Positions 25,011 to 44,899 of a stretch of 64,000 nucleotides of DNA are shown piece by piece. The position numbers were made by a program, and so were the translations under genes. Source of the DNA: Zwartia panacis (lineage in GTDB: Bacteria > Pseudomonadota > Gammaproteobacteria > Burkholderiales > Burkholderiaceae_B); the NCBI RefSeq assembly GCF_030410395.1, contig NZ_JAUHHF010000001.1:124001-188000 (forward strand), read 5' to 3'. The notes under the pieces are model-generated. The model made no database searches and was not told the DNA's origin. It worked only from the letters and a program-made list of their open reading frames with translations. Every line of letters begins with the position of its first letter. Position 1 is the stretch's first letter.

Positions 25011-25104
25011 GGAGGCGTGCCCGAGCGGCTGAAGGGGCTCCCCTGCTAAGGGAGTATATGCGCTAAAACGTGTATCCAGGGTTCGAATCCCTGCGCCTCC
25101 GCCA
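25011..25104 (+). tRNA. tRNA-Ser (anticodon GCT)
   Basis: The acceptor stem GGAGGCG (25011-25017) pairs with CGCCTCC (25094-25100), followed by discriminator G and an encoded CCA. The anticodon stem CTCCC/GGGAG encloses the loop CTGCTAA with anticodon GCT at 25045-25047. A long variable arm and the T-loop GTTCGAATC are present, all typical of class II tRNA-Ser reading AGC/AGU. The downstream accessory DNA suggests that the 3' end may have served as an integration site, but no second copy of the 3' end is visible in the window. Confidence 0.97.
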
Positions 25105-25296
25105 AGTAGTAAGTGTTTATGAGGCTCTTCAGGGGGTCAGTCGCAACGTGGTACCACTTGTGGTGCCAGTCTTGTAGGGGTATCAGCCGAATCCCTGGAG
25201 CAAAATCCCGCTTGTATGTCTGCCGCCAGACAGTTTGACCGACACATATCCAATACCTGAAAGTCGTGCCTTTCCACTTGAGACAAGGAGAACGGC

Positions 25297-25503
25297 ATGG
25301 GTAGCTCAACACAGTTTGACCAGGAATTGTTCGCAGAACAGCATGCCGATCTGATCTAGGCGCTTTCGGTATTCCGAGGCAAGGGCGACGACCAGGATAG
25401 CGAGGGCGCAGCCCTGAACATGCTCGGGCTACTGGCGCAGTACGGCTGCACAGACCTCATTCGTAGATCGTCAATTACAGCCTTGGGCGCGAAGCGTACC
25501 TAG
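25297..25503 (+). pseudogene. Small unknown ORF with good ribosome site, broken by an in-frame TAG
   Basis: An AAGGAG site at 25285-25290, six bases before the ATG at 25297, opens a frame that begins MGSSTQFDQELFAEQHADLI. It meets TAG at 25357-25359, then continues open for 47 codons (ALSVFRGKGDDQDSEG...) to TAG at 25501. The second half reads like real protein (balanced, acidic, then GLLAQYGCTDLIRRSS), so I take this as one gene of about 68 codons interrupted by an amber codon. The family is not recognised. Readthrough cannot be excluded. Confidence 0.45.
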
Positions 25504-25852
25504 GTCTAGGCATACAGCTGCTTGTTGACATTGCGTTCCCCAGTAAGGTTTTCTGATCGCCTGCCCAACGCCAGCCTTGTACTCGGTCCGTTGAGCGTAA
25601 GTGCTCGGAGGATGGGACTGCTGGTGCCACTTGAAGGAAATGCTGATCCGCCCCCTGGGGTAGCACCGCTCACCCGAGCTCTGATGGTTACCCCCTCACT
25701 CAGAAATTTTCAACAGTTTCAGACTTTCAGCTTACTCCCTCCCACCGCTCGACCTTGTCGGTGTCTCAACTAAGGTGATCACCAAGAGATGCTTGTCACA
25801 TCTGGCGCATGATGTTAAGTTTAGCTTGCCCCCAGAGCTCAGACCTGCCACC
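25504..25852. other. Non-coding or decayed stretch after the tRNA-Ser
   Basis: No frame here reads like protein. A + strand open frame at 25522-25773 is Pro/Ser/Arg-rich and looks spurious, as does a minus-strand one at 25475-25666. Probably remnants of inserted DNA next to the tRNA. I see no integrase, transposase or inverted repeats. Confidence 0.5.
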
Positions 25853-26191
25853 ATGATCTATGCCATCTACTTCGTTGCGTTCTATCTGGGCTTCTTAGCC
25901 TTTGCTCTGGCGCAGCTGCTTGATCGGCATAACGCAGCTAATCGGCCAGCAAATCCAGCATCGATGCGCTGGGCTGCGCGCTTTGGAGCTGCATGTGTTC
26001 TAGCGCTTACCATATTCGGGCTCTCGAAGTTCGCCTGGTACGTCCCATTGCTCGCATATCTATCCGTTGCGCTCACAGCAGGTACGGTTCGCTATCGAGC
26101 GCGCCGTTCCCCGAAAGCGCTAAGTATCGAGATCCTATGCGGCGCGAGCAGTGTATTTCTTACGATTCTCAGTTTCCAGCTGGTGGACTAG
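25853..26191 (+). CDS. Small inner-membrane protein, intact copy of a duplicated gene
   Basis: The 112-residue product has an N-terminal membrane segment (MIYAIYFVAFYLGFLAFAL), a basic loop (RHNAANRPANP), a second and third segment (about 45-82, with FGLSKFAWYVPLLAYLSVALTAG) and a fourth at the C-terminus. No known family. The frame opens at 25775, but the ATG at 25853 is preferred because a paralogue of exactly the same length, 339 bases, occurs at 28028. The two copies flank the ATPase-TOPRIM gene. A role with that gene is possible but unproven. Confidence 0.6.
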   Translation: MIYAIYFVAFYLGFLAFALAQLLDRHNAANRPANPASMRWAARFGAACVLALTIFGLSKFAWYVPLLAYLSVALTAGTVRYRARRSPKALSIEILCGASSVFLTILSFQLVD

Positions 26192-26460
26192 CCCAAGGAG
26201 TTGCGCATGTCACGTCCATCATCCAGCAACAAGTACTGTCAGGCAGGAAACGACCCGTTCCATTCACAGGCTTCCGCGAAAAGACTGCCCCAAAGCCGCC
26301 TCACAGCCGTCCAAATACTGTGGCTAATGGTAATTTCCTGTCAATGCCGATCCGGCTTCAGCATTGCAGTAACACGGGCTGGTTTGTGCGACTCGATCGA
26401 AAAGACGATACTCGTGCCCACGTTAGGATGACGTACTTAACAACCAAAAGATAATGCCCT
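26192..26460. other. Gap between the small membrane gene and the ATPase-TOPRIM gene
   Basis: Three + strand frames stay open for parts of this gap, but none has protein-like composition or a ribosome site that would make it convincing. The promoter of the ATPase gene should be here. The in-frame TAA at 26452-26454 shows that the ATPase cannot start further upstream without a frameshift. Confidence 0.4.
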
Positions 26461-27858
26461 ATGACGATAGACGAGTTGGTAAACGCGGCGAAATTCACTG
26501 TGCTGATCGGCAAGAACGGCGCTGGTAAAAGCACGCTGTTGCGCTCACTGAATGCTGGCGATCGGCCTCATATTAAGTACGTATCTCCCGAGCGAGGCGG
26601 AACGCTCAAATACGATCCAAACGTCGACAACAACATTAATTCCAATGAGGCGTGGCTTAAGCAAACTAGACAGACGAACAGGTTTGAGCAATTTCGCCAG
26701 CAAAGCGCTGCACAGTTCAGAAACCTTGAAACGGCAGTGCTTCGCGAGATCGAGAAAGAGGCCGAAAAACGTGCCGACTCAACATATACATTTGATGTCA
26801 TTCTTGAGCAGATAAACGAACTGCTTCCAGCAATTAGGATGATCCGCAACGACAAAGGTGGCTTCTCGGTCCAGACGAAGTCTGGACAGCCGCTTGATGA
26901 GGCGAATATATCCAGCGGTGAATCAGAGCTGATTGCGTTAGCCATCGAGGTGTTGGTGTTCTCACGCCAGTCAATGGCAAACAAGATGCTCTTGTTGGAT
27001 GAGCCTGACGTGCATCTTCATCCAGACTTACAGCAGCGTTTTACCTCGTTCGTAGAAACAGTCGCAGTTGCACATGATCTTCGCGTCGTTATTGCCACTC
27101 ACAGTACAGCAATCATTGGGGCCTTCTCGAAGAGCGCTGATCTTCAAATTGTTCCGATCTCAAAGAGAGATCAATCCGATTTCGCCACCTTCAGTCGGTC
27201 AGGGGTTTGCGAAGAAATTCTGCCAATTTTTGGCGCTCATCCCCTTTCGACTGCTTTCAATCGATCACCTATAGTGCTGGTGGAAGGAGACGACGATCGG
27301 CGCGTCTTAGAGCAAGTTATTCGTTCGGGTGGAGGTAGGTTTGCACTGGCGCCGTGCGTCGTTGGCAGTGTCACTGAACTTTCGGATTGGGAAGACTGGT
27401 TAAATCGGTTTCTCCCGGTCCTGTATGACACGCCAAAGGCCTTTTCCCTGCGTGACCTTGATGATGCTCAGGAGGCTGACATCAATGATCTCGACCACGT
27501 GCGTCGCATCCGATTGAACTGCTATGCAGTAGAAAACTTGCTTCTGTCCGATCAGGTGCTCACTGCTCACGGATTCAGTGCCGATGCCTTTAGGACTGCT
27601 CTGCAGGCACGCGTGGAACGTATTCCAGATCACAAATACACAGGTGCTTTGCGTGCTCTTGTTGATGACTTCGAGAACCGTAGGACTCGGAACATCAAAG
27701 ACGTTCGCAACATTCTTGTCGCTGAACTTGGTAGCAACAAACCGTGGGAAGTGCTATTAGGTCAGTTGATTGCGGCCGAGGTTGCGACCGTTAACCTAAG
27801 TGAACATTCCATTCAAACCTACCTCGGTCCAAAGGCCATGACATATCTCTTCCATTGA
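26461..27858 (+). CDS. AAA/ABC-type ATPase fused to a TOPRIM-like (DUF4435-type) domain; candidate anti-phage defence protein
   Basis: The 465-residue protein has two parts. Residues 1-260 are an ABC-type ATPase: Walker A GKNGAGKST (17-25), signature SSGES (151-155), Walker B LLLDEPDVHLHP (177-188) and H-loop His214. The central part is charged and helical. Residues 268-400 look like a TOPRIM nuclease: VEGDDD (274-279), SLRDLDD (329-335) and YAVENLLL (355-362), the last resembling DUF4435. This layout recalls OLD proteins and, more closely, a fusion of PARIS AriA and AriB. The usual N-terminal strand before Walker A is very short, so slight truncation is possible. The defence role is inference. 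Confidence 0.72.
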   Translation: MTIDELVNAAKFTVLIGKNGAGKSTLLRSLNAGDRPHIKYVSPERGGTLKYDPNVDNNINSNEAWLKQTRQTNRFEQFRQQSAAQFRNLETAVLREIEKEAEKRADSTYTFDVILEQINELLPAIRMIRNDKGGFSVQTKSGQPLDEANISSGESELIALAIEVLVFSRQSMANKMLLLDEPDVHLHPDLQQRFTSFVETVAVAHDLRVVIATHSTAIIGAFSKSADLQIVPISKRDQSDFATFSRSGVCEEILPIFGAHPLSTAFNRSPIVLVEGDDDRRVLEQVIRSGGGRFALAPCVVGSVTELSDWEDWLNRFLPVLYDTPKAFSLRDLDDAQEADINDLDHVRRIRLNCYAVENLLLSDQVLTAHGFSADAFRTALQARVERIPDHKYTGALRALVDDFENRRTRNIKDVRNILVAELGSNKPWEVLLGQLIAAEVATVNLSEHSIQTYLGPKAMTYLFH

Positions 27859-28027
27859 CGGTTCTCCGCGGACACTCTTGAATCGCGGAAGCTGCCGTTC
27901 GGGAATGTCAGCTCCTGGCCGAAACCGGCTGTTATGAACTCAGTTATGGCTTGATCTGACATACACTGTCTGATCAAGTTTGAGTTAGTGCATCTAAATC
28001 AATCTAAGACCTCTTAACCTGTCCATC
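27859..28027. other. Short intergenic stretch after the ATPase-TOPRIM gene
   Basis: GC-rich then AT-rich non-coding DNA with several short inverted segments (CCGTTCGGG...CCGAAACCGG) but no T-run terminator. I see no coding potential. Confidence 0.3.
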
Positions 28028-28366
28028 TTGATCTATGCCGTCTACATCGTTGCATTCAACCTTGGGCTGCTTGCCTACGTGATCGCGAGATTGATTAACC
28101 GGAAGTCACCGATACACCAGCCATTGAGACCTGCACCCATGCGCTTTAGCTCCTAGTTGGCTGGATTATGCGTGTTAGTGCTGATAGCCTACGGTTTCTG
28201 GAAACTGTCTTGGTACTTACCAATACTTGCTTACCTGTCTGTTTTCTTTACTGCTGGCACTATTGCACGCCGTGCTTCAAGATCCGATAAAGCTCCGGGA
28301 ATAGTGATCGCTTTCGCTGGAGTGAGCACCTTGCTGACAGTGCTCTTTATTTCGGTGACGCTCTAG
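28028..28366 (+). pseudogene. Broken paralogue of the small membrane protein at 25853
   Basis: Reading from TTG at 28028 gives IYAVYIVAFNLGLLAYVIA, parallel to IYAIYFVAFYLGFLAFALA of the upstream copy. The frame continues through PAPMRFSS to TAG at 28154-28156, then on with LCVLVLIAYGFWKLSWYLPI and SVFFTAGTIARRASRS, matching the paralogue to a stop at 28366. Both loci are exactly 339 bases long, so there are no indels, only one amber codon and an ATG-to-TTG start change. The piece from 28157 might still be made as a shorter protein. Confidence 0.65.
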
Positions 28367-28443
28367 CGCGCTGGGCTGTTAAGCCTCGCGGCTGGCCGCT
28401 CGAAGCATTGTGCCCTGCATAGGGCATTAGATAAAATGATCGC

Positions 28444-28947
28444 ATGACAAATCAAAACAGATCAAGCTACCGCAAGGGCGTTGACCTTACCCTTAAACAA
28501 CGTGCCTTCGTGACCATTTTGGTTAGGCAAGGCTGCAATCCGACGCAGGCGGCGCGCCAAGCGGGTTACGTTGAGCCTAAGGTTGCCTCGTACGACTTAC
28601 TACGCACCCCTCATGTCCAAGAGGCGGTTCGGCAAGAAAGGGCGAGGTATGTATCAGGAGACCTTGCTAACGTCGCCACCGGAACGCTAAGAGCGATTAT
28701 GATCGACGAGAATGCGCCGGCGTCTGCTCGCGTTGCAGCGGCACGAACTGCTCTGGAACTTGCTGGGGAGCTTGGATCGAGTAAACGTGACGTAGATAAC
28801 GATCGCCCATTGAACGAAATGACTGCCGATCAGCTGGCGCAACTCATTGATAAATGGCAGGGTGAGCGGTCAGAGCTGGCAAATACCGTCGACGCTGATG
28901 ATGTGACTATGCCTTGTGCAGCTGACTCTTCGCAACTCCTTCAATAG
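28444..28947 (+). CDS. Phage terminase small subunit
   Basis: The 167-residue product resembles small terminase proteins, which recognise phage DNA for packaging: an N-terminal helix-turn-helix (TLKQRAFVTILVRQGCNPTQAARQAGY, residues about 16-42), SYDLLRTPHVQEAVRQER, and a conserved helical block ARVAAARTALELAGELG (about 98-114). The tail is acidic. No large terminase, portal or capsid gene is near, so it is an orphan of a decayed prophage or a cargo of a satellite-like element. Its short downstream partner is at 28984. Confidence 0.75.
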   Translation: MTNQNRSSYRKGVDLTLKQRAFVTILVRQGCNPTQAARQAGYVEPKVASYDLLRTPHVQEAVRQERARYVSGDLANVATGTLRAIMIDENAPASARVAAARTALELAGELGSSKRDVDNDRPLNEMTADQLAQLIDKWQGERSELANTVDADDVTMPCAADSSQLLQ

Positions 28948-29848: not shown

Positions 29849-29865
29849 CTTAAGTCTCCGTTAAG
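29849..29865 (+). promoter_or_regulatory. QseB/PmrA-like direct-repeat box upstream of the regulator operon
   Basis: CTTAAG (29849-29854), five bases, then GTTAAG (29860-29865) follow the pattern YTTAAK-N5-YTTAAK known for PmrA/QseB-class regulators. It sits 34 bases before the cytochrome b561 gene. A TTAGAATATAAA stretch at about 29874-29886 could supply the -10. The response regulator encoded two genes downstream belongs to this class, so autoregulation is likely. Confidence 0.55.
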
Positions 29866-29898
29866 TTTTGAATATTAGAATATAAAAATATCTTAATA

Positions 29899-30489
29899 AT
29901 GTTGATGGAAACAAACTTGAACACATCTTCTGCCGCTTTAATTAAAAAAAGAAATCGTTTTTCAAGTATCAGCATCGGGCTACATTGGTTAATGCTCCTC
30001 CTTCTTGTTGCTGTGTATGCGACGATTGAACTCAAGGGTTTTTTTCCTAAGGGCGGAGATGTGCGGCAAGCCCTAAAACCCTTGCACTCAGGATTAGGTA
30101 TTACGATCTTGATGCTTGTAATAATACGTATTACTTACAACGCCTTTCAAGAGTCGCCAGCGATTATGCCCAAGCCGCCGCAATGGCAGCTCTTTTCTAG
30201 CAGAATGATGCACTACGTACTTTATTTGTTCTTGGTTGTCGTTCCTGTTGTTGGTTGGCTTATGTTGAGCGCTAAAGGAAAACCAATTGCGTTTTTTGGG
30301 TTTGAGCTACCTGCGTTGATTGGACCGGATCGCGCTTTTGGAAAGCGACTTGAAAATCTTCACGAAACACTTGCTCAAGCTGGTTATTTTTTAATTGGTG
30401 CACACGCAATCGCTGCATTAGTTCACCATTACGTATTGCATGACAATACTCTTATTCGCATGCTGCCTAAATTTAACAATGGTAAATAA
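29899..30489 (+). CDS. Cytochrome b561-family membrane protein
   Basis: Di-haem, four-helix inner-membrane electron-transfer protein of 196 residues. Likely haem ligands are His29 (GLHWLML), His63 (PLHSGLG), His155 (LHETLAQ) and His169 (IGAHAIAAL), placed on four hydrophobic helices as in bacterial CybB. It may pass electrons from quinol or serve as a redox sensor. Two starts are possible (29899, or 29905 two codons later). The response regulator starts two bases after its stop, so this gene leads a three-gene operon with the two-component system. Confidence 0.85.
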   Translation: MLMETNLNTSSAALIKKRNRFSSISIGLHWLMLLLLVAVYATIELKGFFPKGGDVRQALKPLHSGLGITILMLVIIRITYNAFQESPAIMPKPPQWQLFSSRMMHYVLYLFLVVVPVVGWLMLSAKGKPIAFFGFELPALIGPDRAFGKRLENLHETLAQAGYFLIGAHAIAALVHHYVLHDNTLIRMLPKFNNGK

Positions 30490-30491
30490 TC

Positions 30492-31151
30492 ATGCGCGTT
30501 CTGATTGCAGAAGATGATCGCTCTTTAGGCAGTGGTATCGAGGCAGCACTAAAGATGTCAGGCTACGCTGTCGACTGGGTACTGGACGGAAAAGACGCCT
30601 TGCTTGCTCTAGACTCGGGTGAATATGCAGCATGCGTGTTGGACTTGAATTTGCCTCGCATGGATGGCATCAAGGTACTTCAGTCCTTGCGGCGTCAAGG
30701 AAACAATGTACCTGTCCTGATATTGACGGCTCGAGATACGAGAGAAAGCAAAATTGAAGGTCTCGATGCTGGAGCAGATGATTATTTAACCAAGCCGTTT
30801 GATTTGCCAGAGTTGCAGGCTCGTATACGGGCGCTCTTGCGCCGAGCTGCGGGATCTGGTTCAGTTCAGTTAACTTATAAAAATATTTCTTTAGACCCAG
30901 TTGCACGCAGAGTAACTGTAGATGGCAATAATGTTACCTTGTCAGCAAAAGAGTACGCCCTGCTTCATGATCTAATTAGCCATCAAAATCACATACGCTC
31001 TCGCGCTGATTTAGAGCAAAGTCTTTATGGTTGGGGTGATGAAGTAGAGAGTAATGCTGTAGAGGTACACATACATCACCTTCGAAAAAAACTTGGTGTT
31101 GATATGATCACAACTGTTCGTGGAATGGGTTACGTGATGGGTGATCTGTGA
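30492..31151 (+). CDS. OmpR/QseB-family response regulator
   Basis: The 219-residue protein has a receiver domain with acidic pocket EDD (7-9), phosphoacceptor Asp51 (CVLDLNLPRMDG), Thr in LILTARD and Lys in LTKPFDLPEL, then a winged-helix DNA-binding domain (about 125-219) with the motif SNAVEVHIHHLRKKLG. It is closest in style to QseB/PmrA/TctD regulators. The last four bases overlap the kinase start. It is the natural candidate to bind the two CTTAAG-N5 boxes at 29849 and 32762. Confidence 0.92.
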   Translation: MRVLIAEDDRSLGSGIEAALKMSGYAVDWVLDGKDALLALDSGEYAACVLDLNLPRMDGIKVLQSLRRQGNNVPVLILTARDTRESKIEGLDAGADDYLTKPFDLPELQARIRALLRRAAGSGSVQLTYKNISLDPVARRVTVDGNNVTLSAKEYALLHDLISHQNHIRSRADLEQSLYGWGDEVESNAVEVHIHHLRKKLGVDMITTVRGMGYVMGDL

Positions 31152-32554
31152 GCTGGCGCGAGGCACTTTCAAGTGGCTCTCTTCGGCGAAGACTGCTAAC
31201 CTCAATATTTGTTCCGTTATTGATCGTATGGTTAGCGCTAGTTCTGATTGCATATGACAAAGGTAAGCATGAAGCTGAGGAGCTACTCGATGGTCAGCTT
31301 TCATTATCCGCTCGACTCCTTGAGGCTCAGATTTTTCACGAGGAAACTAATCACACTTTCGGTCAGTTAGCAGAAGATGGCACAGATCAAAAAAAGACTG
31401 CATTAATTGAAAAACTGGATATTGAGGATAGGCTGCCCTACGAGCAAGAATTAGCTTTCAAAATTAGCAAGGAATCAGGTCCTGTTATTTTGATGTCCGC
31501 CAACGCCTTATCTATGGATCACTTCGCTGAGCCTGGGTTTCATTTACAAGAAATTGATGGGACAATTTGGCGAATTTACGTAAAAAAGAGCCTCGATAAA
31601 CGGTTTCATCTGCAAGTAGCTCATCCGCTTTCGAGCCGCGAATTAATTGGTTTGGATGTGGCGGAACGTATTGCTATTCCATTGTTCTTCGCATTTCCGA
31701 TTTTGATGCTCATCATGTACGTTTCGGTCACACGTTCGATTCGCCCTCTAGATCGTGTTGCAGAGAGTTTGTCGACAAGGTCAGTTGATAATCTCTCACC
31801 CGTCTCAGACTATAAAATTCCTTTAGAGCTGCGTTCAATCATCCATGCGTTTAATCGCTTACTTTTGCGCGTAAGTGAAAGTATCAAAAATGAACGTAGA
31901 TTTACTTCAAATGCTGCGCATGAGCTCAGGACTCCTCTGGCCGGTACAAAGCTGCACGCTCAATTAGCATGTGCTACTTCTGACCCAGTTCAGAAAGAGC
32001 AATTCATGTCTCAGGTTTTGGAGGGTTTGGATAGATCCCAGCGACTGATTGAGCAGATGCTCAAATTGGCACGTTTAGACCCTGAAAATCTTGGCCAATT
32101 AAAACTCGACAATATCGATATAAAAACTTTACTTTTAGAGGTGCAAGATACTGAGGCAGAAACTCTAAAAAGAAAAAATCAGAATCTGGTGCTTGACGTA
32201 TCATCGTCGCTGAGCACTATCAGAGCTGATGAAGAGTTGTTAAATGTCGCACTTACTAATTTGGTGGGCAATGCTGCTCGGTACAGCCCAATGGGGACTA
32301 CAATTTTCGCTGGCAGCTGGGCAAAAGACGAACAGTACGGTTTGTATGTTCAAGATTATGGTCCAGGTATTAACCCTGAAGATTTACCTACGATTACCCA
32401 GCGTTTTCGGCGTGGAACCGATGTGCGAGAGGAGGGTACTGGTCTAGGACTGGCAATTGTTGAGCGTATTGCATCGCTACACCATGCAGAGTTGATATTG
32501 CGAAACATCCCCACGGGTGGGCTTAGGGCTGAGATTGTTTGGAAACTCGATTAA
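31148..32554 (+). CDS. QseC-like sensor histidine kinase
   Basis: Inner-membrane kinase of 468 residues. Membrane segments lie at about 18-36 and 174-195, enclosing a periplasmic sensor of about 135 residues. A HAMP-like linker leads to the H-box NAAHELRTPLAG (phosphorylated His258), then the N-box (LTNLVGNAARYSP), G1 (DYGPGI) and G2 (GTGLGLAIV) ATP-binding motifs. It starts with GTG overlapping the regulator stop. The sensed signal is unknown. The adjacent b561 protein hints at a redox or quinone-linked input, but this is inference. Confidence 0.92.
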   Translation: MSWREALSSGSLRRRLLTSIFVPLLIVWLALVLIAYDKGKHEAEELLDGQLSLSARLLEAQIFHEETNHTFGQLAEDGTDQKKTALIEKLDIEDRLPYEQELAFKISKESGPVILMSANALSMDHFAEPGFHLQEIDGTIWRIYVKKSLDKRFHLQVAHPLSSRELIGLDVAERIAIPLFFAFPILMLIMYVSVTRSIRPLDRVAESLSTRSVDNLSPVSDYKIPLELRSIIHAFNRLLLRVSESIKNERRFTSNAAHELRTPLAGTKLHAQLACATSDPVQKEQFMSQVLEGLDRSQRLIEQMLKLARLDPENLGQLKLDNIDIKTLLLEVQDTEAETLKRKNQNLVLDVSSSLSTIRADEELLNVALTNLVGNAARYSPMGTTIFAGSWAKDEQYGLYVQDYGPGINPEDLPTITQRFRRGTDVREEGTGLGLAIVERIASLHHAELILRNIPTGGLRAEIVWKLD

Positions 32555-32872
32555 ATTTTTTTATTCTAATAATTACTGCGCTTGTTTTCGTAAGATTCAT
32601 TTAGTGAAAATTGATTGCATCATTGATAATGCGGTCATACATCCCAGTTACACGTTACAACACACTCGCGTCATATTCTTGATGCGTGTATTTATTTTTA
32701 CTTTTTTTTAAAAATACCCTTTATTTCCATATGGTTAGGATTTATGGATAGTTTTTAATCTCTTAAGTTTCTCCTAAGAATGGAACATTAAAGTTCCAAC
32801 TACAGAATGCCTGATCGGCAACTGTTAATTCCCTTAGGAATTATGAACAGATACTGACTTAAGAGGTGCTTT
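32555..32872. other. Intergenic region with control elements before the secretion operon
   Basis: About 320 AT-rich bases with no gene. It contains a regulator box at 32762-32778, a 6-bp palindrome at 32781-32798 and a possible -10 (TACAGAAT, from about 32801). No T-run terminator is apparent after the kinase gene, so some read-through into the secretion operon is possible. Confidence 0.5.
32762..32778 (+). promoter_or_regulatory. Second QseB/PmrA-like box, upstream of the DUF4214/secretion operon
   Basis: CTTAAG (32762-32767), five bases, then CCTAAG (32773-32778), with the same 11-base period as the box at 29849. It lies 95 bases upstream of the DUF4214 start, so the leader would be about 60 bases. 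The second half-site has one mismatch. A shared operator links this operon to the two-component system. Confidence 0.5.
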
Positions 32873-33442
32873 ATGAGCCGTTACGAGAATGAACGAGATG
32901 ACGACCGCTACGAGCGCGATGATGATCGCTATGAGCGTTATGAGCGCGATGATGATCGCTATGAGCGTTACGAGCGTGATGATGATCGTTACGGTGATAG
33001 TGATGACAGGCGTTATGCTTCAACGCCAAATACGCCAGCTAGTACTGCTCGCTATGCTGAAATCGATGACGATTATGATGGTCAAGCCTTTCGTTTATAC
33101 ATGGCTGCGCTAGATCGCACTCCGGATCCAACTGGTCTCGCAAACTGGACTAATTTGTTGCGTAGTGGTGCTGATCTAGACGATGTGGCTAGAGGTTTTG
33201 TAACCAGTACAGAATTTCAATCCCGATATGGTGATTTGGATGACAGCGAGTATGTCACTCAACTGTACCTCAATGTGCTTAATCGCTCCCCTGATGCGTC
33301 GGGCCAAGCAAATTGGATTGCTCAGTTAGAGTCTGGTGCAACACGCGAGTCGGTATTAATTGGATTTTCAGAATCTACAGAAAATCGCTTGCAAGCAGAG
33401 GCACTTGTAAATGGTGTCGATTATCAAGCTTGGGTAGGATAA
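32873..33442 (+). CDS. DUF4214-domain protein with charged tandem repeats; predicted type I secretion cargo
   Basis: The 189-residue product has no signal peptide. Residues 1-48 are a highly charged low-complexity stretch built from ERDDDRY units, four copies with ERY spacers. Residues about 70-185 form DUF4214-type helical repeats with RLYMAALDRTPDPTGLANW and QLYLNVLNRSPDASGQANW, a domain common in large secreted adhesins and glycan-related proteins. It lacks glycine-rich RTX nonapeptides. One base separates it from the TolC-like gene, so the operon couples it to a complete type I exporter. That it is the cargo is inference from this linkage. Confidence 0.78.
   Translation: MSRYENERDDDRYERDDDRYERYERDDDRYERYERDDDRYGDSDDRRYASTPNTPASTARYAEIDDDYDGQAFRLYMAALDRTPDPTGLANWTNLLRSGADLDDVARGFVTSTEFQSRYGDLDDSEYVTQLYLNVLNRSPDASGQANWIAQLESGATRESVLIGFSESTENRLQAEALVNGVDYQAWVG
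32891..32992 (+). repeat. Tandem repeat encoding ERDDDRY units
   Basis: The core is a 30-base direct repeat (units 32912-32941 and 32942-32971 differ at one base), flanked by partial copies at 32891-32911 and 32972-32992. The near identity of the two full units implies recent duplication, and copy number could vary between strains without changing the frame. Confidence 0.85.
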
Positions 33443-33443
33443 G

Positions 33444-34778
33444 GTGTTTAGCGTTGTTTTGCTAAGAAAATGCGTTCCCATAGCTCTTGCTCTGATGCAC
33501 TATGGGAACGTTACATTCGCGCAAAGCCTACAAGAAAGTGTGAATATAGCTCTAAGCCAGTATCCATCAATACTTGCTGCACAATCACGAACACAAGCCG
33601 CTGATTTCGACATCATTAGGGCTCAAGGTGCGCATTACCCACAAGTAGCGTGGTCAGGTACGCAAAGTTCTTATAACACTGGAAATATTCCTAGTAATTG
33701 GATTCAATCTCCAACAGTCACGATGAATATATGGTCGGGCTGGGCAATTGAGTCGGATGTCGAGAAGTCTAAAGCACTAGCAAACGCAGGCCGTCAACAG
33801 CAGCGAATCACAAGAGATGATGTCGCATTACTTGTAACAGAAGCTTATTTGAATTGGGCGCGTTCATTACAGCTTGTGAAACTAGCCCAAACCAATCTCG
33901 AAGAACATCAACGAATTCGTCGCGACATTACAACCATTGCTGAAATTGACATTGGACGCAAAGTTGATTTAGACCAAGCGCAAGTACGTTTTGAAAGTGC
34001 CAGCCTGTCATTAAAGCAAAGGCAGACTGAATTGGAAGTGGCCAGTCAGCGACTTTCTCGCATGTTGATGGGGAGGATGCCAGTCAAACCGGAAGGTCTA
34101 AACGCAATGGTTGGGCGATTGCCAGGAAGCTCGAATGAGGCATTAGGGTACTTGGTTGATTCGCACCCTGTTATTGCTTTAAAGATTGCTCAGGTTCAGG
34201 TAGCGAAGGCAAGCGTAGGTGCCGCACGTGCTCAACACTCCCCGACAGTCAATTTAACTTATGGGAAGCAAGTCAATCAAGGTTCAGGTCAGGGCGACTA
34301 TGTCGCTCAGCTTAATGTGTCTATTCCTATTTTTACAGGAGGTTCTGCAACTGGAGCGACCGGCACAGCATCAGCAAATTTACAAGCAGCCGAATTTGAT
34401 TTGAGCGATACACGTTTAATTTTGCGTGAGAAACTTCTCTCAGCATGGTCCGAGTATTTTTCCTCAAAAGATCGGGCTGCTCTTGGTACAAAACAGGAGC
34501 GCACTGCGAAAATACTGGTATCAAGTTATGAAAGTCAGTTTCGAATTGGCCGTCGATCATTACTTGATTTGTTAAATGTGCAAAACGATCTTTACAACTA
34601 CCAAAGTAATGCCTTAGCGGCACGTTTTGATGAGCAGATTTTTTATGCGCGAATCATGGCAACAATTGGAAAGCTTGCGAGTTCGTATGCGCCGTCTAAT
34701 GACGTAAGAAGTCAATCCATGCCTTTACCTGGCATGAATCCTCAGGCGACTTGGTTGCTGATCACGGAATCCCGATGA
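33444..34778 (+). CDS. TolC-family outer membrane protein of a type I secretion system
   Basis: Outer-membrane/periplasmic channel component, 444 residues with a GTG start. An N-terminal signal (ending near HYGNVTFAQS, about 27) leads into two OEP repeats of long coiled helices, with LNWARSLQLVKLAQTNL and GRKVDLDQAQVRF typical of the AggC/LapE/TolC group. It starts one base after the DUF4214 stop and overlaps the ABC gene by four bases. Met18 is an alternative start, but it would destroy the signal peptide. Confidence 0.87.
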   Translation: MFSVVLLRKCVPIALALMHYGNVTFAQSLQESVNIALSQYPSILAAQSRTQAADFDIIRAQGAHYPQVAWSGTQSSYNTGNIPSNWIQSPTVTMNIWSGWAIESDVEKSKALANAGRQQQRITRDDVALLVTEAYLNWARSLQLVKLAQTNLEEHQRIRRDITTIAEIDIGRKVDLDQAQVRFESASLSLKQRQTELEVASQRLSRMLMGRMPVKPEGLNAMVGRLPGSSNEALGYLVDSHPVIALKIAQVQVAKASVGAARAQHSPTVNLTYGKQVNQGSGQGDYVAQLNVSIPIFTGGSATGATGTASANLQAAEFDLSDTRLILREKLLSAWSEYFSSKDRAALGTKQERTAKILVSSYESQFRIGRRSLLDLLNVQNDLYNYQSNALAARFDEQIFYARIMATIGKLASSYAPSNDVRSQSMPLPGMNPQATWLLITESR

Positions 34779-36541
34779 AAAAAACCGAAAAGATTTCTGG
34801 ACCAGCATTTGATTGGTTTTGGGGAACGTTGTGGAAATTCAGGCTTTTCTATTTTGAGTCGATGGTGGCATCAGTTGTCGCCAACTTACTGACTTTAGCC
34901 TCAATATTTTTTACGATGAACGTATATGATCGGGTCGTGCCATCACAAGCATTTGTGTCGTTGTGGACGTTGGCAATCGGTACAACAATAGCAATTGTTT
35001 TAGAGTTTTTGATGCGTTGGGTCAAGGCAAGATTAGTAGATCTTGGAGGAAAAAAAGCAGATTTAGCAATTAATGCCACGTTGCTAAGCGAAATCATGGC
35101 AATCAAACTTGAGCACCGACCACAGTCTATCGGTGTTTTTGCAAGCTCAATGCGGGATTTTGAAGCGTTAAGGGATTTTTTCTCATCTGCTTCCTTGGTC
35201 CTGGTCGCAGATATGCCTTTCATAATTTTATTTTTAGTATTGATCGGTTTAATTAGCGGTCCACTCGTACTTATTCCGGCCGTAATAGTTCCATTATTGA
35301 TTATTGTTGGATTGGTTGCCCAGCGTCCATTGATGCGCTCTATGCGCGAAGGTATGAAGCAGGCTGGGGACCGTCAAAGTGTATTAGTTGAGTCTGTGCT
35401 GAATCTCGAGTTACTAAAGGCTCACAATGCTGAAGGCTATTTGCAAAGTCGTTGGGAAATTGCAAATTTAGCTGCAGCAGATTCATATAAAAATACAAGA
35501 GCTATTACAAACTTTATGATGGGCTTAACCGCGACGGCACAGCAGCTTGGAACTGTTTCCATGGTCGTTTTTGGTGTGTATCTTATTTCATCTAATTCTC
35601 TGACCTTGGGTGGGTTGATTGCCTCGGTAATTTTGGCGGGGCGTGCTGTAGCTCCTTTGGGAAGTATCATGTCCCTCGCATCTCGTTACCAGCAAGCTGC
35701 ATCCGCCTTAGAGACACTTGATGGATTAATGCAGCGGCCGAGCGATCATGTTTTAGGTAAACGATACGTCAAACTAAAAAATTTCAAAGGTAGTTTAAAA
35801 GCAGATTCTGTTGAATTCGCATACCCGGGCATCGATCGCGGCGCAGTTATCAAAGGTATTTCAATGGATCTTAATCCAGGTGACCATATCGCGTTACTTG
35901 GAAAGGTCGGCAGCGGGAAAAGTACATTTCTTCGATTGATGTCTGGTCTTTATACTCCCAATGCAGGAAGAATTCATGTCGATGATTTCGATATGAATGA
36001 AATTGAACCGAAGCAATTCCGTTCCAACTTAGGTTATGTCGGTCAGGATCCCCAGTTATTTAGGGGAACATTACGAGAAAATCTAATTTTGTCTGATACA
36101 AAAATTCAAGATCAGGAAATTATTGATGTATTGAAAAAATTAGATTTTTTTGATGTTGTTCAGTCCCATCCGCTGGGTCTTGAGATGCCATTGAGTGAAT
36201 CAGGAGGAGGGCTTTCCGGTGGCCAAAGACAGTTAATTGCCATTGCGCGAATGATGGTGCGTAACCCAGTCTATGTATTTATGGATGAGCCTACGGCCAA
36301 TATGGATCAAGCGACAGAGACACTAGTCATTGAAGTATTGCAGACCTGGTTGCAGGGGCGCACACTACTATTAGCAACTCATCGGCTGCAATTACTCACT
36401 TGGGTAAATCGTATTGCTGTTTTTGAGCATGGAAAATGCTTAGCTGAAGGACCTCGTGATGAAATTATGAAAAGCTTAGCCCGTGGGGCGGAAATTGCTC
36501 GCGCTCGAAGTGCGAAATCGATGCAACAGGTAAGCGAATGA
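34775..36541 (+). CDS. Type I secretion ABC exporter (PrtD/LapB-like)
   Basis: Inner-membrane exporter of 588 residues. The transmembrane domain spans about 25-320, with segments at YFESMVASVVANLLTLASIF and FMMGLTATAQQLGTVSMVVFG. The nucleotide-binding domain carries Walker A GKVGSGKST (376-384), signature LSGGQRQ and Walker B YVFMDEPTANMD. There is no N-terminal C39 peptidase or C39-like domain, unlike LapB/HlyB, so the cargo is presumably not cleaved at a GG leader and is recognised without that appendage. The ATG at 34775 overlaps the TolC stop; an earlier TTG is rejected. Confidence 0.92.
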   Translation: MKKTEKISGPAFDWFWGTLWKFRLFYFESMVASVVANLLTLASIFFTMNVYDRVVPSQAFVSLWTLAIGTTIAIVLEFLMRWVKARLVDLGGKKADLAINATLLSEIMAIKLEHRPQSIGVFASSMRDFEALRDFFSSASLVLVADMPFIILFLVLIGLISGPLVLIPAVIVPLLIIVGLVAQRPLMRSMREGMKQAGDRQSVLVESVLNLELLKAHNAEGYLQSRWEIANLAAADSYKNTRAITNFMMGLTATAQQLGTVSMVVFGVYLISSNSLTLGGLIASVILAGRAVAPLGSIMSLASRYQQAASALETLDGLMQRPSDHVLGKRYVKLKNFKGSLKADSVEFAYPGIDRGAVIKGISMDLNPGDHIALLGKVGSGKSTFLRLMSGLYTPNAGRIHVDDFDMNEIEPKQFRSNLGYVGQDPQLFRGTLRENLILSDTKIQDQEIIDVLKKLDFFDVVQSHPLGLEMPLSESGGGLSGGQRQLIAIARMMVRNPVYVFMDEPTANMDQATETLVIEVLQTWLQGRTLLLATHRLQLLTWVNRIAVFEHGKCLAEGPRDEIMKSLARGAEIARARSAKSMQQVSE

Positions 36542-37719
36542 TTGAGAGTGAGTTCGAAGAGCGCAAAGTATTACGTCTGTTGGTATGGACGTCAGCGCTT
36601 GTACTTGTTTTAGCGCTGATCTGGGCCTCTGTTTTTGATTTAGACGAAATCACACGAGGTCAAGGACGCGTCATACCTGCGAGTCGAGAGCAGATTGTGC
36701 AAAGCTTAGATTCAGGTATCTTGTCAGAATTGCTTGTACGTGAAGGAGACTTAGTTCAAAAAGATCAGACCCTGTTACGTATAGATGATATTCGGTCCGG
36801 ATCGCTGTACCGTGAGACTCGTGAAAAAATGTTGTCATTGCTTGCCCAGGCATCCCGATTGCGTGCAGAGGCCTATAGCAATAATCTTGTATTTCCAAGC
36901 GAACTTGATGCACAGCCAGTACTGAGAGAGCGTGAGCACAAAGTTTTTGAGGCTAGAAAAAATGCACTTGAACAACAACTCTCTGCTCTAAGTAAATCGC
37001 TCGTTGCAATTAGCCGAGAGTTAGCATTAACGGCGCCGATGGTTAAAAAGGGGGTAGTTTCGGAGGTGGAGCTTCTTCGCCTTCAACGCCAGCAAGCGGA
37101 GTTGGAAGGACAAATTGCTGAGCGCACTAACCGCCACTTAACCGAATCAAGTAACGAACTTAGTCGTGTAGAGTCAGATTTGGCTCAAACGCGCGAATTA
37201 GTGCTTGCTCGAGAAGATGCTTTTAAGCGAACAGTCATACGCTCACCGATGAAGGGTATCGTAAAAAAAATTCAAACGACAACAATCGGCGCAGTGATAC
37301 AAGCAGGACAAAATATTCTTGAAATTATCCCGACACATGACGAAATGCTAGTTGAAGCTTATGTTAAACCATCAGAGATTGCGTTTTTAGAGATTGGTCA
37401 ATCCGCAGTAATAAAACTATCAGCTTACGATTTTAATAAATACGGCGGTCTAAGGGGTGAGTTGATAAACTTTAGTCCTGATACGCTGCGCGACGAAAGC
37501 GGTAGTCGTAAATCGAGTGGAAGTCCTGCTGATCTGGAAGAGGGTTACTACCGTTTGTTCATACGCATTCTTAATCCAAACGTGATGAGACACGGTGTTT
37601 CTTTGCATCCTAAGCCAGGTATGACTGTAACTGTCGAAATTTTAACGGGTAGAAAGACTGTGATTGAATATCTTTTCAGACCGTTACAGGCCGTGACTCA
37701 GGCACTTCGTGAACGATAG
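36538..37719 (+). CDS. HlyD-family membrane fusion protein of the type I secretion system
   Basis: Periplasmic adaptor of 393 residues that bridges the ABC exporter and the TolC-like channel. One membrane anchor (LLVWTSALVLVLALIWASVF, about 14-33) is followed by a split biotinyl-lipoyl half (GRVIPASREQIVQSLDSGILSEL), long coiled-coil hairpin helices (about 85-230), the second lipoyl half (SPMKGIVKKIQTTTIGAVI) and a beta-barrel with KPGMTVTVEIL near the end. It overlaps the ABC gene by four bases and completes the exporter. Confidence 0.92.
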   Translation: MIESEFEERKVLRLLVWTSALVLVLALIWASVFDLDEITRGQGRVIPASREQIVQSLDSGILSELLVREGDLVQKDQTLLRIDDIRSGSLYRETREKMLSLLAQASRLRAEAYSNNLVFPSELDAQPVLREREHKVFEARKNALEQQLSALSKSLVAISRELALTAPMVKKGVVSEVELLRLQRQQAELEGQIAERTNRHLTESSNELSRVESDLAQTRELVLAREDAFKRTVIRSPMKGIVKKIQTTTIGAVIQAGQNILEIIPTHDEMLVEAYVKPSEIAFLEIGQSAVIKLSAYDFNKYGGLRGELINFSPDTLRDESGSRKSSGSPADLEEGYYRLFIRILNPNVMRHGVSLHPKPGMTVTVEILTGRKTVIEYLFRPLQAVTQALRER

Positions 37720-38264
37720 CTTGGATCTTTTGATTTAAATAGAATTGAAATCACTTGCATCATTAATAGTTTCAAACACTAGTGGGTCTTTGGAAAACGA
37801 TTCCAGACGCGAGACAAGGTCTGATACATTAGCTTTGAGTATGTTGAGATTTTTTTACAGCCTAAAAAGGCAGTATTTAACTCTCGGATATTTCCCTCTA
37901 AACAATTTATCTGCATGGCTGGCTTAGTCAACAATCAGGGGAAAGATTCGACGCATGAAAATTACCTTAACGTTGACAAAAAACAGAGGGAACCTAAAAG
38001 TACTTTAAAAGGTTGGTTTTATAGTACCAAACTATATTCCAAATTAATGTAAATTTAAAAAATTGTTTTTTATCATTGGGTTATAAGTATTTTGTAGGAC
38101 TGCGCCTACGCCAGATCTGTTTTTGCAAATTAAGCACCTTCGGGTGCTTTTTTGTTTGTCCATAAATTCCCTAAGCCAATCCGATGACGCATCCTTGATT
38201 CGCTGTGTGTCTAAGACCAAGCCTCATATAATTCTCAAATTGGTATTCAACAGAGAGTATAAAA
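37720..38264. other. Intergenic region after the secretion operon with hairpins and a possible small RNA
   Basis: About 545 bases. A short open frame at 37745-37927 lacks a ribosome site. TTGACA at 37973-37978, with TAAAAG 16 bases later, could be a promoter. A stem GTAGG/CCTAC is at 38094-38109 and a strong terminator at 38132-38153. A transcript of about 145 bases between promoter and terminator would be non-coding. No other gene is seen. Confidence 0.35.
38132..38153 (+). terminator. Intrinsic terminator, AAGCACC family copy 1
   Basis: AAGCACC (38132-38138), loop TTCG, GGTGCTT (38143-38149), then a T-run on the + strand. A UUCG tetraloop makes it very stable. It closes transcription coming from the secretion operon or from the possible small RNA. 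Near-identical copies occur at 39151 and 41679. Confidence 0.9.
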
Positions 38265-39080
38265 ATGCGTCGCGTTTTCTTATCCATTATCATCCTCGCC
38301 CTGTCCTGTATTACTTCGGGCGCGGCAGCTCAACAGATAAACGAGCAGTGGCTCGGTTTCTGGGACTCCGCTGACGGCCAACTCATCGTCACCTCCAAAA
38401 ATATTGTTGATGCCGGCAAAATCTGTAGATGGGTGGGCAAGATACCCGCTGGACAACATACAGGTTGTATCGCATTTTATGGAGGCACCACGACTAAAAA
38501 GAACATGCTCGCAACACTTCAAAACATGCGTGAAGCTCTTCGAGACAACGTTCAAAACATGGACGCCCAGTATCTGGCAGGAGAAAAGAAACTGGTGGAT
38601 ACGTTGGAGACTAACCTCCAATCACTCAGCGACAGTACCTTTAGAATCGTGGACACCTCGGATGCTGATTATCAAGGTTCGGGTGATTGCGGCAACTATT
38701 ACATTATGGATCAAGGTGTTGCTTACTCAGTTCGTCAATGCGAGTCAGCCGGCTTGGGCAGTGCATTGATACTGACGCCTATGCGTAAAGGTCCAGCGAC
38801 AGGACCCATCACAGCGCTTGATGGAAACTGGGTCAGTACAAAATGGAAATACGGCTACACACTGAACAACGGACTTGGCACAGCAACTGCTACGAACAGC
38901 GCAAAGTTTAAAGTAGGTGATGAAATCATCATTCTTCGCGCCACAGGAAAAAACACCTTTGAAGGCGAGCAGGTCTATCAGGATGGAAAATTCTATTCTG
39001 TAAGTGCTGTCTTGCTGCCTGATGGGCGCCTGCAGTTTAAAGGCGATAAAAATATTACTTGGATCATGGAACGTAAATAA
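38265..39080 (+). CDS. Secreted protein of unknown function
   Basis: The 271-residue product has a clear signal peptide (hydrophobic core FLSIIILALSCI, cleavage near TSGAAAQQ). The mature part opens with EQWLGFWDSADGQLIV, has four Cys at about 54, 68, 142 and 154 that could form disulfides, and a C-terminal beta-rich region with LDGNWVSTKWKYG and LPDGRLQFKGDKNITWIM, which resembles a small lipocalin-like or lysozyme-inhibitor-like barrel without matching a family I can name. It stands alone between two copies of the same terminator. Confidence 0.6.
   Translation: MRRVFLSIIILALSCITSGAAAQQINEQWLGFWDSADGQLIVTSKNIVDAGKICRWVGKIPAGQHTGCIAFYGGTTTKKNMLATLQNMREALRDNVQNMDAQYLAGEKKLVDTLETNLQSLSDSTFRIVDTSDADYQGSGDCGNYYIMDQGVAYSVRQCESAGLGSALILTPMRKGPATGPITALDGNWVSTKWKYGYTLNNGLGTATATNSAKFKVGDEIIILRATGKNTFEGEQVYQDGKFYSVSAVLLPDGRLQFKGDKNITWIMERK

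Positions 39081-41818: not shown

Positions 41819-44899
<3,081 letters not shown>

Follow-up and report, generated by a model that had tools for sequence, protein, structure and literature searches.

What does a type I exporter secrete if the gene directly before it encodes a protein of only 189 residues, made up largely of DUF4214, a widespread domain without known function? This question is raised by a locus of Zwartia panacis within the 64,000 nucleotides of contig NZ_JAUHHF010000001.1 (positions 124,001 to 188,000) which we analyzed; this whole stretch is called the window and its own numbering is used throughout. At this locus a response regulator, a sensor histidine kinase, the DUF4214 protein (the cargo), a TolC-type channel protein, an ATP-binding cassette (ABC) exporter and a HlyD-type adaptor are encoded in this order. 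We find that this order is a real conserved gene set and suggest that it is probably a self-regulated type I secretion unit that is dedicated to one minimal DUF4214 substrate. The gene order and the DUF4214 modules found at the C-termini of exporter-linked proteins would be accounted for most simply by export of the cargo through the unit's own exporter.

The gene set and its conservation

The unit and its flanking signals comprise the following features of the window.

29849 to 29865, no strand assigned: PmrA-box-like repeat CTTAAG-N5-GTTAAG, 50 bp 5′ of the first ATG of the cytochrome-regulator operon
29899 to 30489, forward strand: cytochrome b561-type membrane protein (Pfam PF01292), an optional member of the unit
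30492 to 31151, forward strand: OmpR-family response regulator, PmrA/QseB-like, with HIH at residues 193-195 (Pfam, NCBIfam)
31148 to 32554, forward strand: sensor histidine kinase, QseC/PmrB-like (2CSK_N, HisKA, HATPase_c)
32762 to 32778, no strand assigned: PmrA-box-like repeat CTTAAG-N5-CCTAAG, 111 bp before the ATG of the cargo gene, with a counterpart in 4/4 loci
32873 to 33442, forward strand: acidic cargo of 189 residues, a DDDRYER-type repeat arm (residues 1-64) followed by a DUF4214 module up to the C-terminus
33444 to 34778, forward strand: TolC-type outer membrane channel protein with a GTG start (Pfam OEP)
34775 to 36541, forward strand: LssB-type ABC exporter (TIGR03375) without the N-terminal C39-like domain
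36538 to 37719, forward strand: HlyD-type periplasmic adaptor (TIGR01843)
38132 to 38149, forward strand: terminator-like hairpin of seven pairs with a T-rich tail, about 410 bp 3′ of the adaptor gene, a pattern match only

The original prediction, made from the letters of this DNA, had placed seven genes with these domains here, which is borne out by Pfam and NCBIfam scans. The tight junctions it described are also found, namely a 2-base gap and a 4-base overlap in the regulator operon and a 1-base gap and two 4-base overlaps in the secretion operon, where the overlap into the ABC gene presumes that the ATG at 34775 is the start. A gap of 318 bp separates the two operons, and the start coordinate given in that prediction, 29849, is the first base of the upstream PmrA-box-like repeat. 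The genes for ABC exporter, HlyD-type adaptor and TolC-type channel stand side by side, and a type I secretion gene set is thus present. The adaptor scores above the cut-off of TIGR01843, the type I HlyD model; the channel protein lies well above the cut-off of Pfam OEP and below that of TIGR01844 (205.2 vs 225.15). The terminator pattern occurs five times in the region vs 8.6 times expected from shuffles, so there is no excess, and overall the promoter and terminator scans of the region gave fewer sites than the shuffles and have no evidential value.

We searched 32 genomes of the genus, the window's own genome being G000. The cargo as query matched six of them (E up to 0.01); a small full-length DUF4214 protein is encoded only in four, G000, G086, G207 and G184, and the matches in G026 and G211 are partial and lie inside large open reading frames (ORFs). 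Looking for the same gene order in relatives had been proposed as a check, and the order regulator-kinase-cargo-TolC-ABC-HlyD was indeed recovered in these four of the 32 genomes, identical in each genome with the small protein. The neighbouring ORFs differ among the four; Sheuella amnicola is among the relatives which carry the unit. The six genes thus form the conserved block, but the cytochrome b561 gene, which had been counted as part of the set, is present in only two of the four units (G000 and G184) and in G184 in divergent orientation.

Exporters with at least 62% identity are encoded at seven further loci of the genus (G219, a second copy in G086, G216, G194, G202, G206 and G127). The stretches examined there contain no cargo match and no close hits to the regulator-kinase pair. 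Next to four of these exporters are proteins of roughly 1.3-1.4 thousand residues; two of these proteins were scanned, and both are subtilases with repeats-in-toxin (RTX) sequences. Among viral contigs 49 stretches matched a pattern, none of them a relative.

The locus had also been described as AT-rich. This holds for the window, where the G+C content is 0.440 (30492-37719) vs 0.556 (1-29000), but the modules of the three relatives are close to their flanks (0.489 vs 0.523, 0.503 vs 0.514 and 0.581 vs 0.590). These modules are not notably AT-rich, and AT-richness as a proof of recent transfer finds no support in the relatives.

The cargo, its DUF4214 module and its exporter

The cargo of the window has a mass of 21.9 kDa and an isoelectric point of 4.19. 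Its only Pfam match is DUF4214 (E = 3.8e-36, in two stretches), and nothing besides DUF4214 appears in Pfam at E up to 10. The four cargos span 177-189 residues, none of them with a cysteine. The arm of about 60-70 residues varies in sequence and remains acidic, with Tyr-rich repeats in three proteins and Asn-rich repeats in G184. Conservation is seen in the DUF4214 half and in the tail, where seven of the last ten residues are invariant. That the cargo has neither RTX repeats nor a GG leader had been read from the letters and is confirmed, since we obtained no RTX hit and found no leader. Two candidate classes were rejected, an RTX substrate, given that even at E up to 10 only DUF4214 is matched, and a microcin-type peptide exported via C39 and a GG leader, as there is no peptidase domain and no leader. 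The description as an atypical small cargo needs correction towards a stripped-down relative of larger proteins which end in DUF4214. The larger Burkholderiales proteins share with the cargo the DUF4214 module and the FSES-EN tail; unlike them the cargo lacks any catalytic, FG-GAP or RTX part and carries only the acidic arm. In 4/4 loci the cargo gene is linked to the exporter genes and the C-terminus is conserved, with a predicted function as signal. The reading that suits the cargo best is that of a minimal type I substrate consisting of an acidic repeat arm and a C-terminal DUF4214 module.

The exporter scores 707.5 bits with TIGR03375, the LssB-type model, and thus above the cut-off of 693.1. 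It covers model positions 134-694 of 696, so that positions 1-133, the N-terminal C39-like domain (CLD), are absent, as had been predicted. Related exporters of G064 and G219 match from position 1 and have kept the domain. A tree of 15 exporters places the four from the modules in a single clade (98/100). Exporters that have no CLD and adjoin subtilases cluster with the CLD-bearing exporter of G216 (96/100), apart from the module clade, and this suggests that the domain was lost twice, independently. In general the CLD correlates with RTX cargo, with HasD/HasA as known exception having neither (PMC8277102). The unit, with neither domain nor repeats, fits the correlation; its genus relatives do not all fit. 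A rule by which an exporter has no CLD when its cargo has no RTX repeats was rejected within the genus, where CLD-less exporters adjoin RTX subtilases. An LssB-type exporter without the domain allows the need for this domain to be compared within one exporter family.

Among known systems, HasA/HasDEF of Serratia likewise combines a small uncleaved cargo without RTX repeats with an exporter without CLD (PMC8277102). The unit differs in that its exporter is LssB-type by model and not PrtD-type, and in having its own two-component pair and PmrA-box-like sites. Against Pfam, NCBIfam and the PDB sequences the cargo gave no hemophore family; HasA itself was not directly compared. With LssB/LapB-type exporters the unit has in common a TIGR03375 score above cut-off and type I HlyD and TolC-type partners, but it lacks the N-terminal C39-like domain and its cargo has 177-189 residues without RTX.

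Four other genomes (G064, G221, G449 and G135) have DUF4214 genes next to type I exporters, in line with the linkage that the original prediction had assumed. In G064, which belongs to another genus, DUF4214 ORFs form an array next to a TolC-ABC-HlyD operon, and a peptidase M64 protein ending in DUF4214 is encoded directly before it. Five proteins of this array were scanned: one is a peptidase M64, one is M10-like (below cut-off), two carry FG-GAP repeats, and the fifth contains nothing but DUF4214. In G221, G449 and G135 the genes stand beside ABC-HlyD-TolC operons whose exporters are PrtD-type above cut-off, G449 and G135 having been chosen because an adaptor was near. No such operon was seen in the stretches examined of G363, G325 and G420. 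Of 399 genomes sampled from the order, the cargo profile finds a match (E up to 1e-20) in 21. A type I adaptor (E up to 1e-40) is present in 19 of these 21 and in 217 of the 378 others (Fisher p 0.0023, a value which ignores relatedness and genome size). As an observation on its own, G064 has 69 DUF4214 matches in a 2.8-Mb genome, with a large cluster of such ORFs around a type I exporter (contig C1, about 17-59 kb; L043, L046, L047).

We gathered, with the cargo as query, 51 distinct ORFs with a match to its DUF4214 half. In 25 of them, including the four cargos, DUF4214 ends at most eight residues from the C-terminus. Tentatively, and with somewhat less than even confidence, we propose that the C-terminal DUF4214 module, a putative distant relative of phycobilisome linkers, is a portable tag of the Burkholderiales for type I export and later surface linking, used by LssB- and PrtD-type exporters alike. 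The unit would then be its simplest form, tag plus acidic arm, with a regulator devoted to one exporter. Having DUF4214 as nearly the whole cargo, the unit makes the question of an export tag testable.

It is quite possible, if not favoured by us, that the cargo is exported but that DUF4214 serves as an anchor or adhesive linker and only the last 10-20 residues form the export signal. This proposal overlaps with that of a dedicated unit. In its favour, DUF4214 lies away from the C-terminus in 26 of the 51 ORFs, and according to PMC12780176 DUF4214 is a likely surface-anchoring domain in segmented filamentous bacteria; another paper has it as part of a possible extracellular enzyme. However, the tail and the FSES-EN part of DUF4214 are conserved together and are inseparable by sequence alone. 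Among the open-licence papers searched we found neither the unit described nor DUF4214 named as a type I signal.

The regulator pair and its predicted sites

The pair had been called QseB/QseC-type. The likeness to QseB stands (237.4 bits, cut-off 345), but the PmrA model scores about equally (241.4 bits, cut-off 330) and neither equivalog cut-off is reached. The best NCBIfam model for the kinase is QseC, also below cut-off. The best PDB alignment of the regulator is that with BasR (PmrA), residues 1-217 on 1-217; His193 and His195 are identical, and in PmrA they are the likely base-specificity residues (PMC3973317). From the same source the PmrA half sites are CTTAAT and CCTAAG, or CTTAAG in Salmonella, spaced by 5 bp, and the CTTAAG-N5-CCTAAG of the unit resembles these published boxes. 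The unit thus shares with PmrAB/QseBC the best model matches and the HIH in the recognition helix; it differs by a regulator below the equivalog cut-offs and by its predicted targets, the own operon and the exporter operon.

Half sites of PmrA type with a 5-bp spacing, in agreement with the published box, are predicted before the candidate target genes. In the kinase-cargo gaps of the other three loci these sites lie 64 to 137 bp before the ATG of the cargo gene; in the window a second site stands before the cytochrome-regulator operon. The best score of the kinase-cargo gap was reached in 124 (window), 3 (G207), 18 (G086) and 0 (G184) of 1000 shuffles. Before the regulator operon the corresponding numbers are 106, 913, 439 and 78.

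Genome-wide, the exact pattern CTTAAKNNNNNNYTAAG has three physical sites in G000, five in G207 and one each in G086 and G184; two, two, one and one of them are inside the module, that is 6/10, so that the regulator looks dedicated. The predicted sites point at the module's own two operons. A naive binomial estimate for six of ten sites in 0.22% of the DNA gives 2e-14, which is overstated as the pattern was fitted to sites already seen. In four members of the genus that lack the module there are 0, 2, 1 and 0 exact-pattern sites, three in total. A reversed-pattern control yields between 1 and 8 strand hits in each genome. Patterns of this kind are therefore not naturally absent, and it is their placement that is unusual.

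That the pair is instead a global PmrA/QseB system with many targets which merely adjoins the exporter appears unlikely to us. The strong likeness to the PmrA and QseB models would suit such a system, and relaxed or weaker sites elsewhere would escape an exact pattern. Yet only 4/10 exact-pattern sites of the four genomes are outside the module, regulator and kinase genes directly precede the cargo gene in 4/4 loci, and no close hits to the pair are found beside the other exporters of the same type in the genus (stretches examined). Separately, we note a strong PmrA-box-like site (CTTAAGATTTCCCTAAG) at C87:20878-20894 of G194, a genome without the unit.

Proposed mechanism and neighbouring features

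We suggest that the unit could work in the following steps. The sensor kinase would detect a cue and phosphorylate the PmrA/QseB-like regulator. The regulator would then bind the head-to-tail CTTAAG-type repeats before the cargo-exporter operon, in Zwartia panacis also those before its own operon, and activate both. In this way the 189-residue protein would be made together with its exporter, which may recognise the C-terminal DUF4214 module with the conserved tail. The cargo would pass the CLD-less ABC exporter, the HlyD adaptor and the TolC channel in one step. Outside the cell the DUF4214 module might act as a helical domain distantly similar to phycobilisome linkers, that is as a connector between proteins, and the variable acidic arm might contact ions or polymers, making the cargo a small surface or matrix component. 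This last role, which we only infer, is the weakest step of the mechanism.

The linker-like helical fold is a lead, not a result. With E up to 10, a DUF4214 profile of 17 sequences matched 21 sequences of the PDB (best whole-sequence E 7.5e-8), all except 2vzb phycobilisome proteins, some by name. Among them are Glr2806, Glr1262, LR2 and ApcH, which we take to be phycobilisome proteins. The match to the linker chains is weak and partial; in the low-confidence AlphaFold2 model of the cargo, helices run from residue 69 on.

Several observations weigh against the dedicated unit with its exported, linker-like DUF4214 module. Only two PDB matches are below E 0.001, each single repeat having an i-Evalue above 1; a profile of four sequences matched nothing in the PDB at E up to 1, and the AlphaFold2 model, built from three sequences, is poor (mean predicted local distance difference test 42.4, predicted template modeling score 0.25). 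The 51-ORF set was gathered with the cargo as query and includes the four cargos themselves, and in the 26 ORFs with more than eight residues after DUF4214 several have another C-terminal region. One of the two FG-GAP DUF4214 proteins of G064 also has RTX repeats. Loss of the CLD does not track loss of RTX: CLD-less exporters stand beside RTX subtilases, and the G064 exporter keeps the domain. The predicted co-occurrence of DUF4214 and exporter genes holds for genomes as given above, but less so for position, many DUF4214 genes having no exporter next to them. Among the matches listed, the adaptor is about 5 kb or nearer to DUF4214 in three (G000, G064, G135) of nine genomes, the nine being those with DUF4214 whose adaptors were located, and four Alphaproteobacteria plasmid regions, taken from 100 matching records, have no exporter nearby in a gene table that is incomplete. 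As for the regulator, the window's two sites alone are not above shuffles, the sites before the regulator operon are weak or absent in G207 (best 9/12), G086 (10) and G184 (10), and the site pattern was relaxed after sites had been seen. Finally, a second DUF4214 copy of G000 (L003, C22:45204-45392) lies inside a protein of about 1400 residues that resembles, on inspection by eye, a phage tail tape measure protein. It is followed by tail-like genes, and G026 has a similar protein (L013).

A type I exporter can serve substrates whose genes are not linked to it, and related exporters of the genus adjoin RTX subtilases or other large proteins, so one might think of a larger substrate encoded elsewhere and of the DUF4214 protein as an intracellular or periplasmic helper riding in the operon, but we hold this to be improbable, as the small protein's gene stands between the regulator pair and TolC in 4/4 genomes, the stretches around the four modules, with ORFs only partly scanned, show no large RTX gene, and in G064 proteins encoded next to exporters combine DUF4214 with domains of extracellular type.

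Some neighbouring features complete the picture of the region. Just left of the AT-rich part, at 25011-28947, are a tRNA-Ser and genes for an AAA ATPase (AAA_21/AAA_15) and for the small subunit of a terminase; these may be what is left of an integrated element. Downstream of the unit an ORF of 271 residues with a signal-like N-terminus (38265-39080) has no Pfam or NCBIfam match at E up to 0.01, and a search with it did not find it next to the unit in the stretches of the relatives. Farther right, a few kb from the unit, an autotransporter of 1026 residues with beta-domain and PATR repeat is encoded (41819-44899), and in G184 the copy of the unit is accompanied by a subtilase autotransporter (L037:14132-17062). 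Elsewhere in G000 (contig C11, about 525-536 kb, L096) there is a second type I set of ABC and HlyD genes with 26-29% identity to those of the window; its very long ABC open frame (1362 residues) and the large ORF following it may belong to an adhesin system.

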